Shown here: positions 9,242 through 57,472 of the stretch, piece after piece
Layout of the letters: each line of letters starts with the position of its first letter
Position numbering within the stretch: position 1 is the stretch's first letter
Assembly: GCA_031254105.1 (NCBI GenBank)
Contig: JAIRVB010000021.1
Span: 124,001-188,000 of the forward strand
Length of the DNA stretch: 64,000 nucleotides
Origin: Chitinispirillales bacterium
GTDB lineage: Bacteria > Fibrobacterota > Chitinivibrionia > Chitinivibrionales > Chitinispirillaceae
Direction of reading: 5' to 3'
Position numbers and translations under genes: made by a program
Notes under the pieces: model-generated
Told to the model about the DNA's origin: nothing
What the model saw: the letters and a program-made list of their open reading frames with translations, nothing else
Database searches by the model: none

Positions 9242-10075
9242 TTATCCTATAAGCTTATTCTTTAACGCCTTCTTCTCATCGCTTTTCAATTTACGTTCAA
9301 TTTTTTTTATATCTTCTGCCGGAGGCAGATTTTCAGGAATAATGCCGCGGTTCAGTAACATCCTCCTCACAGCTGTGTTATTATCAACATGTTCGGTTTC
9401 TATGGGCTTTAGTCCATGTAAATCTTTTGCCTGCACGTTAACAGATGTCATTTCAGCCGCAAGGTCTTTTGCTTTTATACTAATAGTTGGTAAGAAATCC
9501 GCAACAGGGCGACTTTCGGGAACGCCGAATTTTTTCTTTAGCGTTATTGTATTCAGTCTGAATAAAGCTTGATCACCCTTAGAGCGAATAATGGCGAAAT
9601 CTTTATCATTCACACCTCTTTCATATAGGGTTTCTGATAATATTTTTTCTGTTTTAGCTAATTTTGCACGAGCCTTTACACGCTCATAGTTTAAGATGCG
9701 CTGTTCGATGATTTCGGCACGTCTGGTTTGAACGGCAAAATAATTTTGCGCAAAAGCAATTTGTTCTTTCTTGCTGTCACCGTTCTGAGCAATAAGGTAA
9801 CATGCATACCGGGTGAGAAGAATATCCGCAACTTCAATTTGAGCGCCCTTCCCCGCTTCGATCACCTTGCTGATGTCAGCAAAATGATAATTGTGATTTT
9901 CACCTGCATTTTTACACGCATCTTTTGCTTTATTAATAGCATTCTCAAAATTACGCCATTGAGTGTAGCCCAATAGTTCCTGCAGTTCTCTTGCGCTCCA
10001 GCATTCTACACCTTCATATTCAGCAACGGCATTCTCGAACTGCGCAAACAATTCTTTAATTTCTTCCGTTTTCAT
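9242..10075 (-). CDS. DNA damage-inducible protein D-like (DinD family)
   Basis: A 277-residue protein of the DinD type. The N-terminal half is BRO-N/KilA-like ([20 protein letters not shown] near residue 25). The family block [14 protein letters not shown] and [20 protein letters not shown] follows at residues about 85-120, and a conserved C-terminal domain ends in a Lys-rich tail. In E. coli the SOS-induced DinD inhibits RecA filament function; orthologues elsewhere are often on mobile DNA. No LexA box could be assigned. Instead, the upstream region holds two copies of a hairpin that copies part of this gene (see 10107-10194). Confidence 0.87.
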
Positions 10076-44983: not shown

Positions 44984-45130
44984 ATGGAACCGTTTACCAA
45001 AGATGAATTTGAGTACCTGAACTTGAAGCCGCAATTTGCAACCCAAATTTATAATAATGATGAAAATGAACCCGCAACCCTGAACTTGAAGTCACAAATT
45101 GTGACCTTGAAGGGATTTAATTTTCCGTAG
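44984..45130 (+). pseudogene. ORF6N-domain gene remnant (left side of island)
   Basis: A 48-codon fragment beginning MEPFTKDEFEYLNLK and containing two copies of the family-type strand (LKPQFATQ and LKSQIVTLKG). It matches the middle of ORF6N phage-type proteins ('F-x-L-T-K-E-E-F-x-x-L-x-S-Q-x-x-T'). The N-terminus and the rest of the domain are missing. It contains the 19-bp direct repeat at 45087-45105. Confidence 0.6.
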
Positions 45131-45268: not shown

Positions 45269-45472
45269 CTATGTTACTATATAATAACCAGTACTCATTT
45301 GAGCGGCGTATCTCTGCGCCTCAAATGTTTCGAGGTCGCTTTGGCGTATACGGTAGTTACGTTTTGTAAGTTTTAGTGCAGGCAGATAACCTTTTCTTAT
45401 CCAATTCCACACGGCATGTTTTCCTACGCCATAGCGCATGGCTATTTCTCCGCATGTTAACATTTTTTCCAT
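45269..45472 (-). CDS. Excisionase-type helix-turn-helix protein
   Basis: A 67-residue MerR/Xis-like DNA-binding protein. MLTCGEIAMRYGVGKHAVWNW (starting at residue 4) is the helix-turn-helix of the 'helix-turn-helix domain, excisionase family' group, followed by the wing K-G-Y-L-P-A-L-K-L-T-K-R-N-Y-R-I. Such proteins assist excision of mobile DNA or act as small regulators. It is divergent from the RiPP gene, so regulation of that cluster is a second possibility. No recombinase is nearby. Confidence 0.8.
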   Translation of the reverse strand: MEKMLTCGEIAMRYGVGKHAVWNWIRKGYLPALKLTKRNYRIRQSDLETFEAQRYAAQMSTGYYIVT

Positions 45473-45807: not shown

Positions 45808-45846
45808 ATTGCTGCACAACACATTCTTTACTAAAGGGGTAAGATT

Positions 45847-46164
45847 ATGAAAATGAAGTACCGTAAGCCGGAACTTGTTGTTCATGGTGAAAGAGACGTT
45901 GCTGAATGGGCAACTCCCCAAAAGGAAATTACACATCATTTCCCAGCAGTTGCCTGTAAGTGTACAATGGGACAATCAAAAGCAATGGCTCCGCAGTTAG
46001 ATAAGCTGCGGCCTTCTGCTTGTCACTGTACAATGGGGCAAGCTCGCGCCATGACTCCTCCGGTAGATAAGTTACGTCCTGTTGCCTGTCATTGTGCAAA
46101 CGGTGGTTCGCGTGTGACTTATAAAGTTCAAGCGTCACCCGTACAGGATGCAAAAGCAGCGTAA
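45847..46164 (+). CDS. RiPP precursor peptide with three CxC repeats
   Basis: A 105-residue peptide. The N-terminal leader starts MKMKYRKPELVVHGE, a 'Y-x-K-P-E-L-x-x-x-G' pattern common in leaders bound by PqqD-like recognition domains. The core holds three copies of a 22-residue unit beginning A-C-(K/H)-C: C37/C39 (ACKCTMGQSKAMAPQLDKLR), C59/C61 (ACHCTMGQARAMTPPVDKLR) and C81/C83 (ACHCANGG). All six Cys are in these pairs, exactly 22 residues apart. A maturase and a PqqD-like protein follow on the same strand. I infer radical-SAM modification at or near the CxC pairs, perhaps as thioethers, followed by cleavage at the repeated KLRP segment. No known RiPP class matches by eye. Confidence 0.82.
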   Translation: MKMKYRKPELVVHGERDVAEWATPQKEITHHFPAVACKCTMGQSKAMAPQLDKLRPSACHCTMGQARAMTPPVDKLRPVACHCANGGSRVTYKVQASPVQDAKAA

Positions 46165-46269
46165 TATCTTTGGTATTTTAGATGTCGCGAAGGAGCCGTG
46201 GGTAAACCATGCGCTTCTTTTGTTGTTTCTATTACATGTTATCGGAAAGTATCTCGGAGTGTAGCACTC

Positions 46270-47619
46270 ATGTTCTCTGTAGGCCAATACATTTACGATC
46301 CAGAACGACTCATTTTTTATCAAAATGGGTATGGTTCGCATACCATTCAAAAGATACACTCATGTATCGAACCAAACGATAATTATGAGAGCCTGCATGA
46401 AAAGCTCAACGCCTATAATGCCGATGAAATCCAAATCAAACCAGGCGCGTTGAACAGAGCCGGAATCTGTTTGACAAATAATTGCAATTTTCGTTGTAAT
46501 TATTGCAGCGCGTCTTCTGTGGAAGGTCATAAGGAATCGCTTACCATAGAAGATGTAATGGCGTTTGTAACTGATGTAATGAAGCGGTACACTATCAACA
46601 AACTTCTTGGAAACGCAGAAGAACCGTTAAGCCTGTATTTTACAGGCGGCGGGGAACCTGCCTACGATTGGGATTTGTTTACAAATTCTGTCGTTCAAAT
46701 CCGGCAAAAAAGCAGTGACAACAATATCCCGCTTATTTTGGGTATCACAACAAATGGTTTGTTAGACGAATCACAGCGGGTTTTTATCGCGGATAATTTT
46801 GATTCTGTAATGGTATCCTACGATGGGATGCCGGAAATTCAGGATAGAAACCGAAAGAGCGTACACGATTCTCGTCATTCGGAATCTGTTGAAGAGAGTA
46901 TCCGTTTTTTCTCAAAAGCGCAGATACATCTGTCTATTAGAACAACGGTATGGCAAAGCGACTTTTGCCGTTTAAAAGAGATGGCTGATTATATCTTTGG
47001 AAACTTTGGTATTGGTATGGAATGGAGTATTCTGCCGGTAATCCCTACAGGCCGCGCCATGAATCGTGTACAAAAGGAACATGAGAAATTGCGGGAATCT
47101 GATTTTCTTGCGCCTTATCTTGATACTGTTGAATACGCAAAAAGTAAATATGGGGCGGTTAATATCGGCACACCTGTTTTTCAGGATATTGTAAACGCTT
47201 TCTATTGCGGAGCAATATCAATCTATTGTACTTGCCCGTGGCTTATGCCGGACAGAACGATTATCACTTGTATTGAATCTTGCGATGTGAAAACCGTTAT
47301 CGGAAAAGTTGAGGGTAATGAGGTCGTTTATTTTGAGAAATGTCCCGATCCTCTTTTCAAGGTATATCAAAAGCAGTTTGATGAATGCCGGAAATGTATA
47401 GCTTACCGATTTTGTAAAGGCGGCTGTCCCGTTCGTCAGTTGATGAACGGAAATGTTAAAACTATGATGGATGATTGGGAATGTGTTATGATTCAAAACT
47501 ACTGGATGAACATTTTTCAGAATGTTTTGGATGGTAAAGAATATCTTGGTTGGCGCGGTTCGTCTGTTGAAATAGATGGCTTGGAAGATGTTGAAGTATT
47601 AAAATTAACGAAAGTATAA
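46270..47619 (+). CDS. Radical SAM/SPASM peptide maturase
   Basis: About 449 residues from ATG 46270, which has CGGAGTG upstream; a GTG at 46198 is in frame but its ribosome site is too close. The SAM-binding cluster motif C-x3-C-x2-C is C72, C76, C79 in LTNNCNFRCNYCSAS, followed by the glycine motif TGGGEPAYDW (about 135). The C-terminus has a Cys-rich SPASM region: CTCPWLMP, TCIESCD, then CRKCIAYRFCKGGCPVRQ and a last WECVM. SPASM enzymes carry extra 4Fe-4S clusters and modify peptides. Its substrate is most likely the CxC peptide encoded just upstream. Sulfatase maturation is less likely because no sulfatase is nearby. Confidence 0.9.
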   Translation: MFSVGQYIYDPERLIFYQNGYGSHTIQKIHSCIEPNDNYESLHEKLNAYNADEIQIKPGALNRAGICLTNNCNFRCNYCSASSVEGHKESLTIEDVMAFVTDVMKRYTINKLLGNAEEPLSLYFTGGGEPAYDWDLFTNSVVQIRQKSSDNNIPLILGITTNGLLDESQRVFIADNFDSVMVSYDGMPEIQDRNRKSVHDSRHSESVEESIRFFSKAQIHLSIRTTVWQSDFCRLKEMADYIFGNFGIGMEWSILPVIPTGRAMNRVQKEHEKLRESDFLAPYLDTVEYAKSKYGAVNIGTPVFQDIVNAFYCGAISIYCTCPWLMPDRTIITCIESCDVKTVIGKVEGNEVVYFEKCPDPLFKVYQKQFDECRKCIAYRFCKGGCPVRQLMNGNVKTMMDDWECVMIQNYWMNIFQNVLDGKEYLGWRGSSVEIDGLEDVEVLKLTKV

Positions 47620-48254: not shown

Positions 48255-49013
48255 ATGGCTAATGAACGGCTTGGACCGGACGCAGACGGGTATGTCCACA
48301 TGTTTATTCTCATTGATACATCAGGATCAATGAGCGGAGCGATTGAAAAAATCAATATGGCAATGTCTGGTGATATCAAAACAAAATTACTTGAAATCGC
48401 TGATGATAAAAACCTGAAAATTCTTATGCATGTTCTGCGTTTTGATGAAGGACAGCCTCGTTATGTCGTAGGTACAGAAAATGGTGGTGTAGAGCTTACT
48501 GATGGGTTTATTTGGACAAATCTACCTGCAGATGGTAATAGGACATATACAGGAGAGGCTATTGAGCAAGTCTATAAAGACATGAAAGTTGAATTTATTG
48601 GGCTTAAGGCACTAAATCCGATAGTTATTCTAATTACGGATGGTTATGCAAATGGTCAAATATTGGTAAAAGACGCAGCACAAAAACTTAAAACAAAGTT
48701 TATGAAAAAAGATAAATCTGGAGATCTTGTTGTAGGACAGATTGAAAAACTCATTCGAGTTGGTATTGGTGTCAAAACACCAAATGGCGACTACCAAAGA
48801 AATGAGTTGGAGGATTTCGCAACGATTGGAACTCTAAATGAGGTAGAAAATCAGCCGTTTGTTTTTGAGGTGGAAAAATTGGATAATCTTGGGGACATTT
48901 TTACAAACATCGTTGTTGCAAGTCTGTATGCATCATCATTAGCTTCTCAGGAAGATGACCCTGCGGTTACTCCAAAAATGGTTACTACTGATCCAGATGA
49001 AGAGATAATTTAA
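48255..49013 (+). CDS. TerY-like von Willebrand factor A domain protein
   Basis: A 252-residue cytoplasmic vWA domain protein. The metal-ion-dependent adhesion site is complete: D21-T-S-G-S25 in FILIDTSGSMSGA, a Thr in NRTYTGEAI, and the Asp in VILITDGYANG. This resembles the TerY proteins of Ter-type stress systems. In known 'TerY-P' triads a vWA protein, a PP2C phosphatase and a kinase are encoded together, and this is the gene order here. The protein probably acts as a metal-dependent scaffold. A strong hairpin separates it from the phosphatase gene. Confidence 0.85.
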   Translation: MANERLGPDADGYVHMFILIDTSGSMSGAIEKINMAMSGDIKTKLLEIADDKNLKILMHVLRFDEGQPRYVVGTENGGVELTDGFIWTNLPADGNRTYTGEAIEQVYKDMKVEFIGLKALNPIVILITDGYANGQILVKDAAQKLKTKFMKKDKSGDLVVGQIEKLIRVGIGVKTPNGDYQRNELEDFATIGTLNEVENQPFVFEVEKLDNLGDIFTNIVVASLYASSLASQEDDPAVTPKMVTTDPDEEII

Positions 49014-49060
49014 CATCGGGTTTAATCCTCGAGGCATTGTTATAAAATATTTTGATTCAC

Positions 49061-49092
49061 AAACTACCCCGCAGCTTGCTGCGGGGTAGTTT
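49061..49092 (+). terminator. Strong hairpin between vWA and phosphatase genes
   Basis: AAACTACCCCGCAG-CTTG-CTGCGGGGTAGTTT: a perfect 14-bp stem with a 4-base loop, followed by TATT. It looks like an intrinsic (bidirectional-type) terminator, or a partial stop that lowers expression of the downstream genes. Confidence 0.8.
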
Positions 49093-49135
49093 ATTGAGAA
49101 TAGAAAATTTCTTTTGTGGTGAAGAAAGCGATAAT

Positions 49136-50884
49136 ATGCAAAATTATATTATGTTGTCCGAATATAAAGAAGGCTCCAACCACAAAAAATTCAATATTGG
49201 ATGCCAAGATTTTGCAGATTCAAAACAATTTCAGATAAAAGGAACAACAATATGGATGGGATGTCTTTCAGATGGACATACAAATATGCCAGACGGCAGT
49301 CCATGTCCTTATCCCGAAGTTGGAGCAAAAAAAGCTTGTGAAGAGTTTTTTAAATGTGCTGAGAATTATATATCTAAAAGTGGGTTGCAGGTACTTGATG
49401 GACTTGATTTTAAAAAGTCTTTCATTGATGCATGGAAACAGTCTGTTACAGATGATTTTCTCAATGTACGAACGCAATCCAACAATAATACAAATCGCAC
49501 TACGGTTTCTGGTACCAGCGCTGAATATGACAATAAAGAAATATTAAGAAAATACGGTTGTACGTTTATATTTGTTGTTTCTGATGGAAAAGAAATTGTT
49601 GTAGGGCAACTTGGCGATGGTGGGATTGTTTTATTTAATGATGATTATGATTTCATAGTTTTTAAGTATTTCACTCAAAAAAATAGTGGTGGTGTCGACT
49701 CGCTTTGTGGTTCAAATGCGGAATATAAGTTTTTTACAGGCATATATAGTACAAATGACTTTGCTAATGTTTTTATTGCATCGGACGGAGTTTTTGATGC
49801 GGCTGCTTGTATCCCGCCAAAGAATACGATATTGAACCAAAAAATAAAATTTGCGATGTATGCAACTGAACTTCAGGAATACTACAAACAAAATGGCGAA
49901 GAACTTACCAAAAAGAAGTTGAATAATTTTGAGTTTTACGCAGAAAGAAATAGGCGAACAAACTTGCCGAGAAGTTTAACAGATATTAGTCCATTTGATG
50001 ATTGTTCCGGAGTATTATTTGTTACGGCAGACTCACCCCAATCATTTCCATTGGAGAAAAATGGATTGGACGAAGTGGTGAACAAGAATAAAAATGCGAT
50101 TGTACTCAGAAATGGAAAAAATTACGCCACGGCTTTTGAAGTGCAAGTAGGTAAAACCCGTAATTTATTACACCCTGAATTGCCGTATTATGCTGCTCGT
50201 TCAAAATTGATTTCTGAGGGGATAAAAAAAATTGACAATAGGACATTTTATTTCACTGAAATCGAATCGCTGTCAAGTATTGATGAACGAGTGATTGATA
50301 GATACCAACCTATTGAATTTTACTACCATACAAAAACGCTCTCTGCAAAAAACTTATTGTCATTTTCGGTACGGCTTAGTAATTTAATAAATGAAATGAA
50401 AATTTTAAAATTCTATATACAGCGTGGTTTTTTTGAAACATTGGGTGTGCGGTTTGATGCTGATGGAAGTTGTTTTTTTCAAATTCATCCGCAAACCATA
50501 TCGAGAAAAAAAAGCGACTATAATTTCGACAAGGAATTCAATGATCTATTAAAACATCTTAATGTAGAAAGCGGGCCGGTGATCTATGATTCCGTTAAAA
50601 AACACCCGAGCCGTTTTAAATTGTATTATACAACGTTTTACGGGATAGAAAAAATTATTGACAATGCTCCGATCTATGATCGCTCGTGTTTACCACCATT
50701 TGCACTCATTAAGTCAAGCACAAACAGTGGTGGTTATGCAATGCTGAATCTTGGACGGGAATCTTGGGAATATGAAAATGCGGATAAGGTACATTCTCGT
50801 GTATTGCATGGACGCCGGTGTCGTGTCGGTAGAAATTGTTCAATTAAGCATGGAACGACAACAATAAAAGTATGGAGCGAATAG
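49136..50884 (+). CDS. PP2C-like phosphatase of a TerY-P-type triad
   Basis: About 582 residues from ATG 49136. The PP2C core motifs can be traced in order: C-Q-D-F (IGCQDFAD), MGCLSDGHT with the metal aspartate, PYPEVGAKKACEEFF, GQLGDGGIVLF (about 155), FIASDGVFDA (about 210) and SPFDDCSGVLFV (about 280). The second half (about 300-582) is a large extra region with no recognised family. It probably opposes the kinase encoded directly downstream (stop and start are adjacent). The open frame extends upstream to 49052, but that would run through the terminator hairpin and is rejected. Confidence 0.78.
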   Translation: MQNYIMLSEYKEGSNHKKFNIGCQDFADSKQFQIKGTTIWMGCLSDGHTNMPDGSPCPYPEVGAKKACEEFFKCAENYISKSGLQVLDGLDFKKSFIDAWKQSVTDDFLNVRTQSNNNTNRTTVSGTSAEYDNKEILRKYGCTFIFVVSDGKEIVVGQLGDGGIVLFNDDYDFIVFKYFTQKNSGGVDSLCGSNAEYKFFTGIYSTNDFANVFIASDGVFDAAACIPPKNTILNQKIKFAMYATELQEYYKQNGEELTKKKLNNFEFYAERNRRTNLPRSLTDISPFDDCSGVLFVTADSPQSFPLEKNGLDEVVNKNKNAIVLRNGKNYATAFEVQVGKTRNLLHPELPYYAARSKLISEGIKKIDNRTFYFTEIESLSSIDERVIDRYQPIEFYYHTKTLSAKNLLSFSVRLSNLINEMKILKFYIQRGFFETLGVRFDADGSCFFQIHPQTISRKKSDYNFDKEFNDLLKHLNVESGPVIYDSVKKHPSRFKLYYTTFYGIEKIIDNAPIYDRSCLPPFALIKSSTNSGGYAMLNLGRESWEYENADKVHSRVLHGRRCRVGRNCSIKHGTTTIKVWSE

Positions 50885-52345
50885 ATGGATGACATTATTT
50901 GGATTGATAACGGCGGTACAAAATATAAACTTGAAAAAGAACCAAATGGCAGATTAAAATCCCTTGGTCAGGGTGGTCAGGCGAAAGTTTATTTGGCGAC
51001 AGTATTGGGTGGAAAAAGGCAGGTGGCTATTAAACGATATACATCTGACGTTGATAACACAAAAAAACAGCATATTGCACGGCTTTGCAGTATAAACCCA
51101 ATAATGAAACCTAACGGCACTATTGATGATAGATATGTACTGCCGGAAACGATCATCCAGGATTTTAGAGAAGGTTTTGCATATGTAATGCAGTATGTAC
51201 CATTAAAAAAACACGGATTTCTTACGGTAAAAAACAAACATTTGTTTTCAAAATTAAACACTTCTCCAGCGGCGTTGTTGAGGGTGTTGATAAATATTTC
51301 AGAAGTATTTAATATTTTACATTGGGGTAAACACAAACAGAGCGGTGTTCTTGCGTATAAGGATTTAAACGAGGAGAATGTTTTTGTTAATCCAAATACA
51401 GGAGATATCAGGTTAATCGACAATGACAACCTTGGAGCAGCTAATCAGGGTAACATTAAAGGAACTTTCGGATACATGGCACCGGAAATTATTGACGGTA
51501 AAAAACCTGATATTTGGAGTGATCAATTTTCTCTTGCGGTTTTATTGTTCAAAGGCTTGCTTGTTGGTACTCATCCTTTTTATGGCGCAAATGCCGAGGA
51601 ACTTTGTAAAACTGGTATCAAGGAAAATGGGCTGGATGTTTATGCAAATAGATATGAAAAATCTGCACTTAACAAATGGATGCTATCCGATCCCGTTTTC
51701 ATTTTTCATCCAAAAGATTTGCGAAATAGACTTGAAAAATGTAGAGACAGCGAGTTGCGTTCAAATGCTAATACACGCAAAACCTATTGGGAGTTGCTGC
51801 CTGACGAGGTAAAAAATGCATTTATTAAAACATTCACCCAAGGTTTAGAACAAAAAACTACACGTACTCAGACAAGTGCATGGGTGAAAATTTTTAACCA
51901 ATGGTATGCAGAATTAATTCCTTGTAAATGTAACGAACTAAACTTCGCTAATACATGCTGCTATAAATGCGGCAAAACAATTGAAAAAAAAACGATACCG
52001 AAATTACATACATCGCAAAAAAAAATCGCAACACTTGCAACCACTATAGTTAATGGAATTCAGTGTAATGCGCTTACTTCAAAGAAAATTGATCTTGTAA
52101 ATGGGCAAACTATTTCAGGTAGTGATTTTGGAAATGAATTTAAGAAGTATGATATAAAAGCTATGGTTGTTTACAAAGATACAAAAAAATGTTTTTGCCT
52201 TAAAAACATTGGTACTCAAAGTTGGTATGTTCGTGATATAAACAAAAATGTGATTGAATTGACCACTGGTAAACTATTTAACTTATCTATTGTAGGGAGA
52301 AATGTTGCTTTTGTTAAAGGGATTCTTCAAGTGAAAGTACTTTGA
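50885..52345 (+). CDS. TerY-P-type protein kinase with C-terminal zinc ribbon
   Basis: A 486-residue kinase-fold protein. G-loop GQGGQAKVYLA (about 28-38) and Lys K50 (VAIKRYT) are present. The catalytic loop is atypical: AYKDLNEENVFV, with D160 and N165 kept but HRD reduced to YKD. The metal motif is IDNDN (D179-N182) instead of DFG, followed by GTFGYMAPEI. These are the forms seen in TerY-P kinases, so it is probably active. The C-terminus (about 346-363, CKCNELNFANTCCYKCGK) is a four-Cys zinc ribbon, another trait of that family. The remaining 100 residues are beta-rich and unassigned. It starts directly after the phosphatase stop. Confidence 0.87.
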   Translation: MDDIIWIDNGGTKYKLEKEPNGRLKSLGQGGQAKVYLATVLGGKRQVAIKRYTSDVDNTKKQHIARLCSINPIMKPNGTIDDRYVLPETIIQDFREGFAYVMQYVPLKKHGFLTVKNKHLFSKLNTSPAALLRVLINISEVFNILHWGKHKQSGVLAYKDLNEENVFVNPNTGDIRLIDNDNLGAANQGNIKGTFGYMAPEIIDGKKPDIWSDQFSLAVLLFKGLLVGTHPFYGANAEELCKTGIKENGLDVYANRYEKSALNKWMLSDPVFIFHPKDLRNRLEKCRDSELRSNANTRKTYWELLPDEVKNAFIKTFTQGLEQKTTRTQTSAWVKIFNQWYAELIPCKCNELNFANTCCYKCGKTIEKKTIPKLHTSQKKIATLATTIVNGIQCNALTSKKIDLVNGQTISGSDFGNEFKKYDIKAMVVYKDTKKCFCLKNIGTQSWYVRDINKNVIELTTGKLFNLSIVGRNVAFVKGILQVKVL

Positions 52346-52374
52346 TATAACAGAATATTTTGAAGGGTGATAAC

Positions 52375-53289
52375 ATGCTTTTCAAAGAAAAATTAAAATT
52401 GATTTATAATAAAGAAATTAAATCAAATCCTCACTCTCGCATACAAGACACAAAGTGGGTTAAAGGTGTTGTAGCAGACAGTTGTTGTGATGAATATCAG
52501 GATGAACGTAAAGACTTTTTTTCTGTTATAGATAATATAAACCTTTTTGAATGTTTTTCAAGTTGCACAGATGTAAATGCCGAGATAAGTAGAGTTTGGG
52601 CAAACAAACCAAAATTTGTTGATGGGGGTTACTATCTCAATATTATTGAGACGATACTTTATGTTTTAGGAAACAAATTTGATTCAAGCGATTTGGGTTC
52701 CCATCAGCAACGCTCATACTATCAACCGACAAATAATAACGACAATACTTTTGAAGACCTAAAATTTCAAAGTTTAGAATTGGAAAAATTAATATTTGCT
52801 TATATACAACAACTTAAAGAACAACACTTTTACACAGATTATGCTAAATTCAAAAATAAAACGGTTTCATCACAAAATGCGAAACAAACAAACAGATGTT
52901 CAAGGCAAAAGAGTATTACTGACGTGTATGCAAATACTCTGATTGAACTGGCAAAAAAAGAAGATGAAATATTGATTGCGTTGCGAATTGGACAGTATGA
53001 AACAGAATTGAGCGCACAGGTATTGGCTAATCTCCAGAAATTAACGATTTTTGCTCAGATACTAATGAAAGGGATGATTGCTGATTTTGAAATTAGTAGG
53101 AAAACATTTGGAGAAGCAAGAAAAAGACAAATGGCAGAAGCAGAGAATCATAAGTATGATAACTACTATTATAATAAGTTAAAACAAAATTTAAACAAAG
53201 AAAACGATATCTTTTGGGACTCTATTGAAGAACAACTAAATCGGTTCAGAGAATTTCTTTCGGAAAAGTTGGATACTGTTGCTAAATAG
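52375..53289 (+). CDS. Coiled-coil protein of unknown function, paralogue A
   Basis: About 304 residues from ATG 52375, which has GAAGGG upstream. The N-terminal half (about 1-165) has no recognised domain. The C-terminal half (about 185-304) is helical and contains ISRKTFGEARKRQMAEAE and YYNKLKQNLNKENDIFWDSI. The same pattern recurs in the next gene. I do not recognise the family. Tight placement between the kinase and DUF4407 genes suggests a substrate or adaptor for the kinase module. Confidence 0.7.
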   Translation: MLFKEKLKLIYNKEIKSNPHSRIQDTKWVKGVVADSCCDEYQDERKDFFSVIDNINLFECFSSCTDVNAEISRVWANKPKFVDGGYYLNIIETILYVLGNKFDSSDLGSHQQRSYYQPTNNNDNTFEDLKFQSLELEKLIFAYIQQLKEQHFYTDYAKFKNKTVSSQNAKQTNRCSRQKSITDVYANTLIELAKKEDEILIALRIGQYETELSAQVLANLQKLTIFAQILMKGMIADFEISRKTFGEARKRQMAEAENHKYDNYYYNKLKQNLNKENDIFWDSIEEQLNRFREFLSEKLDTVAK

Positions 53290-53306
53290 CAATAACTGGA
53301 GGTCGT

Positions 53307-53684
53307 ATGGACATAACGCAACTAACAAATCTTGATACGGCTATAACATTTAAACTACGAATGGAACATTATAAGAAAATATTGAATGCCGAAGCAATGG
53401 ATATTGATAAAAAATTAACTACGCATTCTCAGACACTAATAAACGATATGGTTTTACTTTTTGAAGAAAGCAGGGTTTCTTTTGGACAACGGCGTAAAAA
53501 GCTAATGGGAGCTATTGAAAAATGCCAGGCTGATGAGAATTGTTATAAACAATTAAAACAAACTTTGGATAAAGAATGTGAAGTCTTTTTTGATACTATT
53601 GATGAATTGCTAAACAGTTTCAACATGGCTCGCAAAAGAAGATCGGATATTGCACAAGAAGAAATTGCTAAAATATTAAGTTAA
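53307..53684 (+). CDS. Coiled-coil protein of unknown function, paralogue B
   Basis: A 125-residue protein that aligns along its length with the C-terminal half of the preceding gene product: L-R-(I/M)-x-x-Y-x-x-x-L near the start, ESRVSFGQRRKKLMGAIEK versus ISRKTFGEARKRQMAEAE, and YKQLKQTLDKECEVFFDTI versus YNKLKQNLNKENDIFWDSI. It therefore probably arose by tandem duplication of one domain. The ribosome site GGAGG lies 7 bp before the ATG. Its small, purely helical make-up suggests hetero-oligomer formation with paralogue A. Confidence 0.72.
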   Translation: MDITQLTNLDTAITFKLRMEHYKKILNAEAMDIDKKLTTHSQTLINDMVLLFEESRVSFGQRRKKLMGAIEKCQADENCYKQLKQTLDKECEVFFDTIDELLNSFNMARKRRSDIAQEEIAKILS

Positions 53685-53730
53685 TAGAATATAGTAAGTA
53701 AATAAGAACAATTAACAGAATTCGATATAA

Positions 53731-55320
53731 ATGAAAGTGCTTTCTGAATTGCGAGAAATAATTTGCCGTATCGGTGGAGCAGATCTAAAAATTTTAGAAA
53801 AATGCCCCAGCGAAGACAACAAGTTTATTGCTGTAGGAATAGGCATATTAAATACCGTTTTGTTGTCTATGATAACGATGTTTTTTGCCATACATTCGAT
53901 AGGAAATGGAATATCGTATGTTTTAATCGCTCCCATTTCTATTCTTTGGGGTTTTATAATCTTTGGTATCGACTGGGGATTAGTCACTACAATCCATAAG
54001 AAACAAAAAGCCAACGTTGTTGAAAAAATAATGGCATTCTTTGGATTTGTCTTTCGAGTGGCGGTTGCTGTTGTTATATCATTTACGGTTTCAAAACCAT
54101 TGGAAGTACTCGTTTTCAAAGACTATCTTCCTACTGCAAGACACCTGATGAAAGTGGAATATAATGAAAAATTAGATGCACCTAATGAAAAAAAAATACA
54201 AGAGTATAACGAAAAAACCTCTGATAATATAAATCAAATTGAAAAATTAGAGATTGAAAAGCAGGAAGCCCTTAAAAATGATATTGTACTTCAAGGTTTA
54301 AAAGAAAATTGGGATCGTTTACAAAAAGAGTCTGAAGAGTTTGAATCGGCAAGAGCTCAAGCGCAAAGGAACATAAATAGACTGACAGAAGAAAATAAAA
54401 ATTACAAAGATAATTTCCCAAATTGGGAAGCATACAAAAATAAAATAAATGATAATGACATTGAAGTCAGCCGACAAACTATTATTAGAAATGAAGCGCG
54501 TAGTTCAAGAGATGATCGAAGAAATAGGTTAGAGATAGCAAAGGTTGATTATAAAAAAAGAGATTCCACGATTACTGCTGATTACAAAAATCGAATTGGT
54601 AAGTATGAGGGCCAAAACCAACTATTAGGTGAATATAGAGAGCATATCTCAGAGAAGCAAATCGTTGATCGTAGAGAAAATGAGTCCATATCAATTGTAT
54701 TTGATCGTGATAATCTCATAACCAATATAATTGCTATAGGATCTCTTGAAAAATATAAAAGTGATTCTACTGCTTCACCTTTAGAACGGAAAATTGCGGA
54801 AAATGTGTTTTTTGTTCGATTGTTATTGATGATTTTGATAATGATTGTTGATATGGCACCTATTGTGATAAAATCTTTAACTAAACGCGGCCCTTATGAA
54901 GTAGAAAAAGAAAACATTGAAAAAACGAGAAATGCTGAAAGCCTTGCTGCATCAGAGAAAAGAGAAGCTGAATGTCGCGCTGAATCGGATAAGAGAAAAA
55001 CCGAGTGTCACGCTGAATCAGAAGCATATAAAAGTGTATGTTCTAAAATGACATTAATGAATGAAATGTATAAAGCAGCAATAAAAGAGCAGGTAGTTTT
55101 GGGAAAGACAACGATTGTTTTTTATAAAAATATCAATACTGTGACAAAAGAAGCATTTAATGAAATAAGAAAAATAATAAAAGAACAGGCCAATTATAGT
55201 AGTCAAGAAACGAAAGTTGATTTTAATGAAATTAATACAAAATTGGAAAAAGCATTAATCGCTTCGAAGAAGAAAATGTTAGATATGTATAATGACTTTA
55301 TTGCTGAGACAAAATCTTGA
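53731..55320 (+). CDS. DUF4407 membrane protein with long coiled coil
   Basis: A 529-residue protein. The N-terminus has the DUF4407 signature: GGADLKILEKCPSEDNKF, a membrane helix (about 33-52), then ISILWGFIIFGIDWGLV and AVAVVISFTVSKPLEVLVFK, giving three helices. A long coiled coil (about 140-345) carries high Glu/Lys content. A further helix (about 358-378, LLLMILIMIVDMAPIVI) and another charged tail with repeated (R/A)EAECRAESDKRK text follow. DUF4407 proteins are of unknown function and common near secreted or conflict-type systems in Bacteroidota. Here it is the last gene of the co-directional run and probably the membrane effector or sensor of the kinase module. Confidence 0.85.
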   Translation: MKVLSELREIICRIGGADLKILEKCPSEDNKFIAVGIGILNTVLLSMITMFFAIHSIGNGISYVLIAPISILWGFIIFGIDWGLVTTIHKKQKANVVEKIMAFFGFVFRVAVAVVISFTVSKPLEVLVFKDYLPTARHLMKVEYNEKLDAPNEKKIQEYNEKTSDNINQIEKLEIEKQEALKNDIVLQGLKENWDRLQKESEEFESARAQAQRNINRLTEENKNYKDNFPNWEAYKNKINDNDIEVSRQTIIRNEARSSRDDRRNRLEIAKVDYKKRDSTITADYKNRIGKYEGQNQLLGEYREHISEKQIVDRRENESISIVFDRDNLITNIIAIGSLEKYKSDSTASPLERKIAENVFFVRLLLMILIMIVDMAPIVIKSLTKRGPYEVEKENIEKTRNAESLAASEKREAECRAESDKRKTECHAESEAYKSVCSKMTLMNEMYKAAIKEQVVLGKTTIVFYKNINTVTKEAFNEIRKIIKEQANYSSQETKVDFNEINTKLEKALIASKKKMLDMYNDFIAETKS

Positions 55321-55438
55321 TTGTCCTCATCATCCGCAATAAGCGGCCCCTTGCCTTACCAAACATATCACGAATTACTCAAAAACATTCATCATCACTG
55401 AGACATAATATATATTAAAACTAAAATTGGAGTATATT

Positions 55439-56059
55439 TTGTCTCAACAAAAACCTGTTATTAATCGCCGCCAAAACGCGATAAATTTGATAAAAGCTCA
55501 TAATGGCTGGATTCGTATGTCTGATGCGATAAAAGCCGGTATAAATCGCCGGACGCTGTATTCGCTCAGGGATGATGGCGTTATTGAACCGGTTTCGCGA
55601 GGTACATATCGTCTTTGCGGCCAGCATTCGCTTTCAGAGCCTGACAAGGCGGCTGTGGCTCTGCGGGTACCACATGCTGTGATATGCTTGGTATCTGCGC
55701 TCTCATTTCACGAGATTACCACACAGATTCCAGGCGCGGTTGATATTGCTGTTCCTTTTGGGGCAGCGGCTCCACGCATCTCTTATCCGCCTGTGAAAGT
55801 GTACAAGCTGCGTGAGCCGTCATTTAGCGCAGGGATTACCGAGCATCTGATTGACGGCGTAAAGGTAAAAATTTACGATATGGAAAAAACCATTTGTGAC
55901 TGTTTCAAATTCCGGCGGTATCTTGGAATGGATGTTGTTTTGGAAGCGCTCAAACTCTATCGCGAGCGTAAACCGCTAAGAGTCAGTAAGCTTATAGAGT
56001 ACGCCCGTATTTGTCGGGTGGAGAAGATAATTCGTCCTTATCTTGAGGCGATATTATAA
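55439..56059 (+). CDS. AbiEi-type antitoxin / transcriptional regulator
   Basis: About 206 residues from a TTG start at 55439 with GGAG six bases upstream. The N-terminal winged helix-turn-helix (AINLIKAHNGWIRMSDAIKA, GINRRTLYSLRDDGVIEPVSR) and the following AbiEi domain (VALRVPHAVICLVSALSFHE; KIYDMEKTICDCFKFRRYLG near the end) match the type IV AbiE antitoxin family. The family normally represses its own operon and neutralises the AbiEii nucleotidyltransferase toxin encoded downstream. No AbiEii gene follows here, so this is an orphan antitoxin or a stand-alone regulator. Confidence 0.82.
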   Translation: MSQQKPVINRRQNAINLIKAHNGWIRMSDAIKAGINRRTLYSLRDDGVIEPVSRGTYRLCGQHSLSEPDKAAVALRVPHAVICLVSALSFHEITTQIPGAVDIAVPFGAAAPRISYPPVKVYKLREPSFSAGITEHLIDGVKVKIYDMEKTICDCFKFRRYLGMDVVLEALKLYRERKPLRVSKLIEYARICRVEKIIRPYLEAIL

Positions 56060-56137
56060 CAGTCTTGTTCCGGTACAGTTTAAACTGCCGCAATTTATAT
56101 TAATTATTGAAGCTGCCTGCACCAATAAAAGGATAAT

Positions 56138-57472
56138 TTGACTTTGGAAAATCAAACAACAGAGTGGAAAGAAAACTGGCATGATGAATATATGCGTACA
56201 ATTTGCGCATTTGCAAACACTTCCGGCGGCGTACTGGAGATTGGGCGGCGCGATGACGGCAAAATCACAGGCGTTGCCAATATTGCAAAACTATTGGAAG
56301 ATTTACCAAATAAAATAAAAAACGCGATGGCTATAATAGTTGATATTGATGTGCGTGAGCAAGAGGGCATAAAATATGTTGTTGTAAATGTGGGAACATA
56401 TCCGTTTCCGATCAGTTATCATGGGGTTTATTATATACGTTCCGGCAGTACCACTCAGGAATTAACAGGCAGCGCGCTTGATGAGTTTATTCTCAGAAAA
56501 CAGGGTAAAACATGGGATGGCATTCCGGTACCTTATGTGAAAGTTGATGATTTCGAGAGCGATGCGTTTAAAACGTTTCGTAAAAAAGCTATCGAAAGCA
56601 CTCGTCTTACAAAACAGGATTTGGAAATAACAGACGAGATACTTTTGAAAAATCTGAGGCTTACGGATGGCAATTACCTGACCAAAGCGGCGCTTCTGTT
56701 ATTTCATCAAGACCCTGAAAACTGGGTGCCTGGAGCGTATGTTAAGATCGGTATGTTTGAAAATGAGGCGGATTTAATTTACCAGCACGAGGTTCACTGC
56801 CCGTTAATTATGATGCCCGACAGGGTTATGGAGATAGTATATCTGAATTACTTTAAGGGTATTATCAGTTATGAGGGTATACAGAGGGTAGAAACTTATC
56901 CGGTTCCGCATTCAGCGTTTCGCGAAGCGATAATAAACGCCATTGTTCACAGGGATTACAGTACCGGCAATCCGATTCATATTCACGTTTACCCTGATAA
57001 AGTGTTAATTTACAATGACGGCAGATTACCCCAAAACTGGACTGTTGAGGATTTATTCAGCCAGCATACATCAAGACCGTATAATCCGCTGATAGCCGGC
57101 GCGTTTTTCCGCTCAGGTCAAATTGAGGCATGGGGACGGGGCATCGCAAAGATTACTGAGGCTTGTGAGTCTTGGGGTAAACAGGAGCCATTTTACCGTA
57201 TACGCCCGAATGAGGTAATGATCGGATTTTACACCGAACCGAAGTTCGGTGAAAAGTTCGGTGAAAAGTTCGGTGAAAAGTTCGGTGAAAATGAAACGCA
57301 AGCGAAAATTTTAGAAATAATGCGCCAAAATCCTGCTATCAGCGCAAAAGCCATAGGTGAAGAGATCGGTATTACTACGCGCGGAGTAGAAAAAAGTATA
57401 CGTGAATTGAAAACTGCCGGTAAAATAGAGCGTATAGGCGCGGCAAAGGGCGGTCATTGGGTTATAAAATAA
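56138..57472 (+). CDS. AlbA_2/Schlafen-type DNA-binding and ATP-binding protein
   Basis: A 444-residue protein of the 'ATP-binding protein, putative transcriptional regulator' family. The N-terminal AlbA_2 domain (residues about 5-120) has EWKENWHDEYMRTICAFANT and YYIRSGSTTQEL. A GHKL/HATPase-like domain is near 255-330 (HSAFREAIINAIVHRDYS, VLIYNDGRLP, ARPYNPLIAGAFF-like). A C-terminal winged helix (ISAKAIGEEIGITTRGVEKS) ends the protein. A run of four 12-bp repeats encodes K-F-G-E four times before it. Start is a TTG after AAAGGA. Such genes are frequent on mobile DNA and in defence regions; target unknown. Confidence 0.85.
   Translation: MTLENQTTEWKENWHDEYMRTICAFANTSGGVLEIGRRDDGKITGVANIAKLLEDLPNKIKNAMAIIVDIDVREQEGIKYVVVNVGTYPFPISYHGVYYIRSGSTTQELTGSALDEFILRKQGKTWDGIPVPYVKVDDFESDAFKTFRKKAIESTRLTKQDLEITDEILLKNLRLTDGNYLTKAALLLFHQDPENWVPGAYVKIGMFENEADLIYQHEVHCPLIMMPDRVMEIVYLNYFKGIISYEGIQRVETYPVPHSAFREAIINAIVHRDYSTGNPIHIHVYPDKVLIYNDGRLPQNWTVEDLFSQHTSRPYNPLIAGAFFRSGQIEAWGRGIAKITEACESWGKQEPFYRIRPNEVMIGFYTEPKFGEKFGEKFGEKFGENETQAKILEIMRQNPAISAKAIGEEIGITTRGVEKSIRELKTAGKIERIGAAKGGHWVIK
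57242..57289. repeat. Four exact 12-bp tandem repeats within the AlbA_2 gene
   Basis: AAGTTCGGTGAA occurs four times without interruption and encodes K-F-G-E repeats in the linker before the C-terminal winged helix. Copy number could vary between strains without breaking the frame. Confidence 0.92.

Follow-up and report, generated by a model that had tools for sequence, protein, structure and literature searches.

The open reading frame at positions 45847 to 46164 of the window, the 64,000-nucleotide stretch of Chitinispirillales DNA analysed here, is strongly supported as the precursor gene of a radical SAM RiPP. With the two genes that follow it, it appears to form a horizontally moving, three-gene, RRE-dependent radical SAM RiPP cassette, in which a short Cys-containing unit probably receives Cys thioethers; we put the probability of this reading as a whole at about 0.6. 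At the level of sequence it draws support from the gene order, the conservation of leader and unit, the catalytic residues, the enzyme clade, and the RRE-like fold. RRE-dependent radical SAM RiPPs are well known as a general kind, although many families are still unstudied, and their usual features are present: a linked small precursor gene, the RS and SPASM Cys residues, and a protein of the PqqD fold. The cassette fits no named peptide family, and it is best read as an unnamed family of this kind. Its features, all on the forward strand, are as follows.

45847..46164 (+), precursor peptide gene, with homologues that precede the orthologous enzyme gene in L040, L041, and L130
45853..45951 (+), leader region with Y-R-K-P-E-L-V-V-H-G, a putative RRE-binding motif; the leader/core boundary is a predicted one
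45952..46017 (+), unit 1 from repeat analysis, ACKCTMGQSKAMAPQLDKLRPS
46018..46083 (+), unit 2 from repeat analysis, ACHCTMGQARAMTPPVDKLRPV
46084..46149 (+), unit 3 from repeat analysis, ACHCANGGSRVTYKVQASPVQD
46187..46223 (+), terminator-like hairpin (putative function) between the precursor and enzyme genes
46270..47619 (+), radical SAM/SPASM enzyme, 449 aa, PF04055
47627..47995 (+), PqqD-type protein, putative discrete RRE, PF05402 (E 1.2e-7)

Such a cassette is a minimal, experimentally tractable three-gene system whose natural substrates carry one or three units, and it offers a clean route to ask how a radical SAM enzyme acts on a Cys-X-Cys unit and how cores multiply in evolution.

The precursor and its single-unit relatives

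The product of the precursor gene, MKMKYRKPELVVHGERDVAEWATPQKEITHHFPAVACKCTMGQSKAMAPQLDKLRPSACHCTMGQARAMTPPVDKLRPVACHCANGGSRVTYKVQASPVQDAKAA, has 105 residues, with Cys at 37/39, 59/61, and 81/83 and nowhere else, forming three Cys-pair units at a spacing of exactly 22 residues, precisely as the preliminary description had reported. The self-match at lag 22 comprised 23 identities, whereas no lag from 8 to 45 gave more than 19 in any of 20,000 residue shuffles, and random placement of six Cys gave three equally spaced CxC pairs in 0 of 5 x 10^5 trials. Units 1 and 2 are identical at 15 of 22 positions. The tail that the full units had been said to share, D-K-L-R-P, is indeed common to these two but not to unit 3, which retains A-C-H-C-x-x-G and then diverges, with 5 to 6 identities in 22 to units 1 and 2, mainly in A-C-x-C and G. 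Because unit 3 (CHCANGGSRVTY) most closely resembles the single core of a clostridial relative (CHCTSSGSRVSY in L041), the sequences suggest that units 1 and 2 were later additions in front of an ancestral single core. The gene has a GC content of 0.48, and a Shine-Dalgarno-like AAAGGGG lies at 45833-45839; the second ATG (45853) may be the true start, since the two closest precursors begin at the residue that matches Met3.

The preliminary description had read the gene as a RiPP precursor and linked it to a radical SAM/SPASM enzyme with a PqqD-like partner. That linkage is kept elsewhere: the order precursor, radical SAM/SPASM enzyme, PqqD-like protein was found in four genomes, namely that of the window, those of two planctomycetes, and one clostridial MAG. 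Two orthologues came from scanning about 85,000 species genomes with a degenerate motif, one in a Planctomycetaceae MAG (L040, a short contig; enzyme 76% identical to that of the window) and one in a Clostridia MAG (L041; about 40% identical). The third, in a planctomycete (L130, also a short contig; 38% identical), came from a search of the planctomycete order. These genome scans, which were pattern limited or sampled, brought the close members to four in total, the window cassette included. In each of the three relatives a small ORF lies just 5' of the enzyme gene and a PqqD-like ORF just 3' of it. The small ORFs encode precursors of 37 to 56 aa (MTYVKPKIVVHGEGDAAEWAVPQKPISQEAVFQTRHVAMSVCTGSSCKCMSGQAKV in L040, MKYEKPIVIIYDEEVMKELEAMASSKCHCTSSGSRVSYDE in L041, and MGKYVKPSVTIVTASQFVGAASMCSGHCGNGSNSKVY in L130), each with one unit where the window has three, so that unit number, whose variation among homologues the preliminary description had left to be seen, does vary.

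The window units and the L040 and L041 cores form a gap-free alignment, C[KH]C-xx-[GS]-[QG]-[SA]-[KR]-[AV], whereas in the L130 core Cx3C precedes a similar G/S/K-V-Y tail. Every cassette core contains at least two Cys, the L040 precursor carries an additional Cys42, and no homologue lacking both was found in the cassette clade. The Cys-x-Cys pair itself, on which the preliminary description had centred, fared less uniformly: it is kept in L040 and L041, replaced by Cx3C in the close homologue L130, and absent from a more distant sister, L135. Given this variation in Cys spacing, CxC itself may not be the feature that is recognised. The sister cassette (L135:4790-9427, minus strand) encodes a precursor with a YITP leader and nine Cys spaced 6 to 10 residues apart; its enzyme has a long N-terminal extension, with a stop codon ahead of the C-terminal end of the match, and it is accompanied by a PqqD-sized ORF and an ABC transporter.

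Metal-binding proteins often contain repeated CxC motifs, and the ORF could in principle encode a small metal-binding or redox protein, itself unmodified, whose gene merely sits beside that of a radical SAM enzyme. We regard this as very improbable. The gene pair, the PqqD partner, and the leader motif are conserved across phyla, and the short single-unit relatives carry too few Cys for a metallothionein-like cluster.

In a maximum-likelihood tree the four cassette enzymes formed one clade (100/99), with the L135 enzyme as its sister (99/100). Since the members of the clade belong to different phyla, the tree indicates that the cassette has moved by horizontal transfer. An enzyme orthologue was present in none of 168 genomes of the host phylum. 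Scans of genome contigs and of viral sequences with the enzyme alone gave no relatives, nor did a viral scan with an alignment of three orthologues; with a loose alignment, the viral scan picked up distant SPASM enzymes only, as did the search of plasmids (20 to 26% identity), where the precursor had no match. A transposase-like ORF, recognised by eye, lies just 5' of the planctomycete cassette (L040:6933-8084) and is consistent with mobility. The Clostridia precursor gene is flanked by a perfect 12-bp inverted repeat (L041:9767-9778 and 9960-9971; AGGGAATGATCT / AGATCATTCCCT).

The radical SAM/SPASM enzyme and the PqqD-type protein

The RS-cluster motif CX3CX2C of the enzyme (Cys 72/76/79) is invariant in seven aligned enzymes, the four orthologues and three more distant ones, and so is a SPASM set of seven further Cys (313, 334, 373, 376, 382, 386, and 405). 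The best NCBIfam models were those of PapB (NF047865; 78 bits against a cut-off of 340) and the SCIFF maturases (TIGR03974; 61.7 bits against 425), and the enzyme reaches the cut-off of no NCBIfam maturase model, so that family-based annotation would miss the system. PapB was the best-scoring model for L041 (99.5 bits) and L130 (75.6 bits) as well. No maturase or precursor model in NCBIfam was matched above cut-off by the cassette. Accordingly PapB, SCIFF, CcpM, Nif11-type, CefB, and other families were rejected for the enzyme, their scores being far under the curated cut-offs. A PADLOC match to viperin (38.8 bits) was put down to generic radical SAM similarity. An AlphaFold model of the enzyme had low confidence (mean pLDDT 49) and is taken as a hint only; its best PDB fold matches were CteB at the top, SuiB, and SkfB, and CteB (5wgg) was also a match by sequence.

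The PapB family of ranthipeptide maturases (freyrasin type) resembles the cassette in having a radical SAM/SPASM enzyme and a multi-Cys precursor built of repeated motifs. PapB joins Cys to Asp or Glu in Cys-X3-Asp/Glu motifs (PMC9413430). Such motifs are missing from the cassette precursors: no Cys-Xn-Asp/Glu with n from 0 to 6 occurs in any of the four, so the PapB acceptor rule fails. The resemblance to SCIFF maturases lies in the fold and sequence match to CteB; in contrast, the precursors fit no SCIFF model, and their CxC units vary in number. The judgement by eye that the cores are of neither the SCIFF nor the freyrasin (Cx3D) type is thus upheld by both the scores and the precursors.

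The leader of the window precursor, Y5-R-K-P8-E-L10-V-V-H-G14, fits [Y/W]xxPx[L/V/I/F/A], the motif bound by discrete lasso RREs and related LPP RREs (PMC13381572; also PMC12710340), and Y-x-K-P is present in all four cassette precursors. The PqqD-type protein was modelled with moderate confidence (mean pLDDT 58) as three strands followed by three helices (beta-beta-beta-alpha-alpha-alpha), and its top PDB matches were TbiB1 structures with bound lasso leaders (5V1U/5V1V; probability 1.00, best E 5e-3). At that model confidence the match supports a lasso-type RRE role, short of proof.

The cassette would thus combine the recognition scheme of lasso peptides, a YxxPx[L/V] leader and a discrete RRE modelled like leader-bound TbiB1, with radical SAM chemistry. 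Lasso peptide clusters differ in that they encode a B2 peptidase and a macrolactam synthetase where the cassette has a radical SAM enzyme; neither of those two proteins had a Pfam match among the window genes scanned (45.3-58.8 kb); no leader peptidase or transporter lies beside the window cassette. The LPP family of Bacillota also has a Y-x-x-P leader and a discrete RRE, and the L041 cassette further includes genes for an HprK-like protein and an MsbA-like transporter. LPP clusters are, however, defined by an SpI-type peptidase, an HprK-like kinase, and an NTP transferase, with a radical SAM enzyme unmentioned (PMC13381572).

Proposed modification of the unit

We propose that the PqqD-type protein binds the Y-x-K-P leader in the fashion of a lasso-peptide RRE and then hands the precursor to the radical SAM/SPASM enzyme, which would generate a 5'-deoxyadenosyl radical. 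The enzyme would oxidise the short unit C-[K/H]-C-x-x-[G/S]-[Q/G]-[S/A]-[K/R]-[A/V] and form thioethers between the Cys sulfurs and residues close by. Each unit would be modified once, which makes three times in the window peptide and once in each of its relatives. A protease encoded elsewhere would finally cut off the leader. The Cys residues are presumably the modified site, and the product may be exported and have an antimicrobial or signalling function.

If the peptide is a radical SAM RiPP, a Cys thioether is the bond we favour, by a modest degree, because all cores contain Cys and the models closest to the enzyme are those of the thioether-forming PapB and SCIFF maturases, the nearest solved enzymes including CteB. 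Candidate acceptors are small residues and a basic residue 3 to 7 positions past the second Cys. Units 1 and 2 and the CKC core of L040 contain no Trp, Tyr, or Phe, and His is present in some units only; the cassette thereby differs from cyclophane-forming radical SAM RiPPs, whose conserved aromatic is missing from the core units. With neither Cys-Xn-Asp/Glu in the precursors nor an aromatic residue in units 1 and 2, neither an Asp/Glu acceptor nor cyclophane chemistry explains the unit.

Radical SAM/SPASM enzymes catalyse a broad range of reactions, and the enzyme might instead carry out other chemistry on the unit: it could form C-C or C-N crosslinks, epimerise a residue, or alter Gly, Lys, or Arg, with the Cys serving as thiols, disulfides, or metal ligands. 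In favour of this, the unit holds no established thioether acceptor, and the CxC cores always have Lys or His after the first Cys and a basic residue at +6. We nevertheless consider this unlikely, though far from negligible: the models closest to the enzyme are thioether synthases, apart from Cys, no residue type with a reactive sulfur recurs in all the cores, and the aromatic residues needed for known cyclophane chemistry are lacking in units 1 and 2.

Precursors full of CxC motifs also occur beside distant SPASM enzymes (L044, L045, L046, L047, L049, L052, L053, L055, L056, L071:9579-9746, L073:9286-9690, and L006, where the precursor is downstream of the enzyme). The motifs include CTC, CSC, and CAC, the organisms are mostly Coriobacteria, and there is no NCBIfam match; this looks like a larger, uncharacterised group. 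It shares with the cassette the pairing of a SPASM enzyme with a CxC-full precursor, but the L044 and L006 enzymes are only 18 to 22% identical to the four cassette enzymes and fall outside their clade, and the precursors are long, with many CTC or CSC motifs and in some cases Tat-type signals; no YxxP leader was seen in L044-L056.

The literature searched, whose coverage mostly excluded subscription journals, held no description of a CxC core of this type or of CxC-type radical SAM precursors. A bolder reading, less likely than not, is that evolution has coupled a radical SAM enzyme to a lasso-type RRE and leader, and that this enzyme makes a compact two-sulfur Cys-X-Cys crosslink, a ring pattern outside the named RiPP classes. 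The three-module precursor would then have arisen from a one-ring peptide by unit duplication, and the Coriobacteria enzymes would be a second, larger CxC-directed branch.

Genomic setting of the cassette

The cassette lies near the start of an AT-rich island at about 44.9-55.3 kb. The enzyme gene and the later island genes have a GC content of 0.31-0.40, whereas the miaB and FliK-like genes on the flanks have 0.46-0.49. The hairpin between the precursor and enzyme genes (z -3.4) is conserved in the DNA alignment, L040 has a matching hairpin at the same place (z -3.8), and in both the 3' arm is U rich. This arrangement would fit a leaky terminator that leaves more precursor mRNA than enzyme mRNA. 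Rfam gave no match in the window.

Beyond the cassette the island continues with VWA, PP2C, and Ser/Thr kinase genes, two ORFs that have no Pfam match, and a gene for a DUF4407 protein, and an AbiEi-like regulator follows it. The VWA protein, PP2C phosphatase, and Ser/Thr kinase lie in a row (48255-52345), an arrangement that resembles the TerY-P triad of the literature, and a Cys cluster at the C terminus of the kinase looks zinc ribbon-like. Elsewhere in the host phylum, the search gave no good-quality orthologue of the VWA protein. These genes are on the same strand as the cassette, begin 0.26 kb from the PqqD gene, and belong to the same AT-rich island, and the two could accordingly make up one larger system, with the cassette as its peptide arm. 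This seems quite doubtful, since no such genes lie downstream of the cassette within the 2.4 kb visible in L040 or the roughly 10 kb visible in L041; L130 is readable for 0.4 kb only. We therefore rejected the three neighbours as members of the cassette.

The stretch from 52360 to 57472, with the two Pfam-less ORFs, the DUF4407 protein, the AbiEi-like regulator, and a Schlafen/AlbA_2 protein, has the look of a defence-like island beside the cassette; no AbiEii partner for the regulator was seen among the listed ORFs. On the 5' side, an AT-rich non-coding stretch carries a 28-nt imperfect direct repeat (45016-45106; 82%), CCTGAACTTGAAG(C/T)C..., and an HTH_17 (excisionase-like) ORF on the opposite strand (45269-45472, minus) is possibly the remnant of a mobile element.
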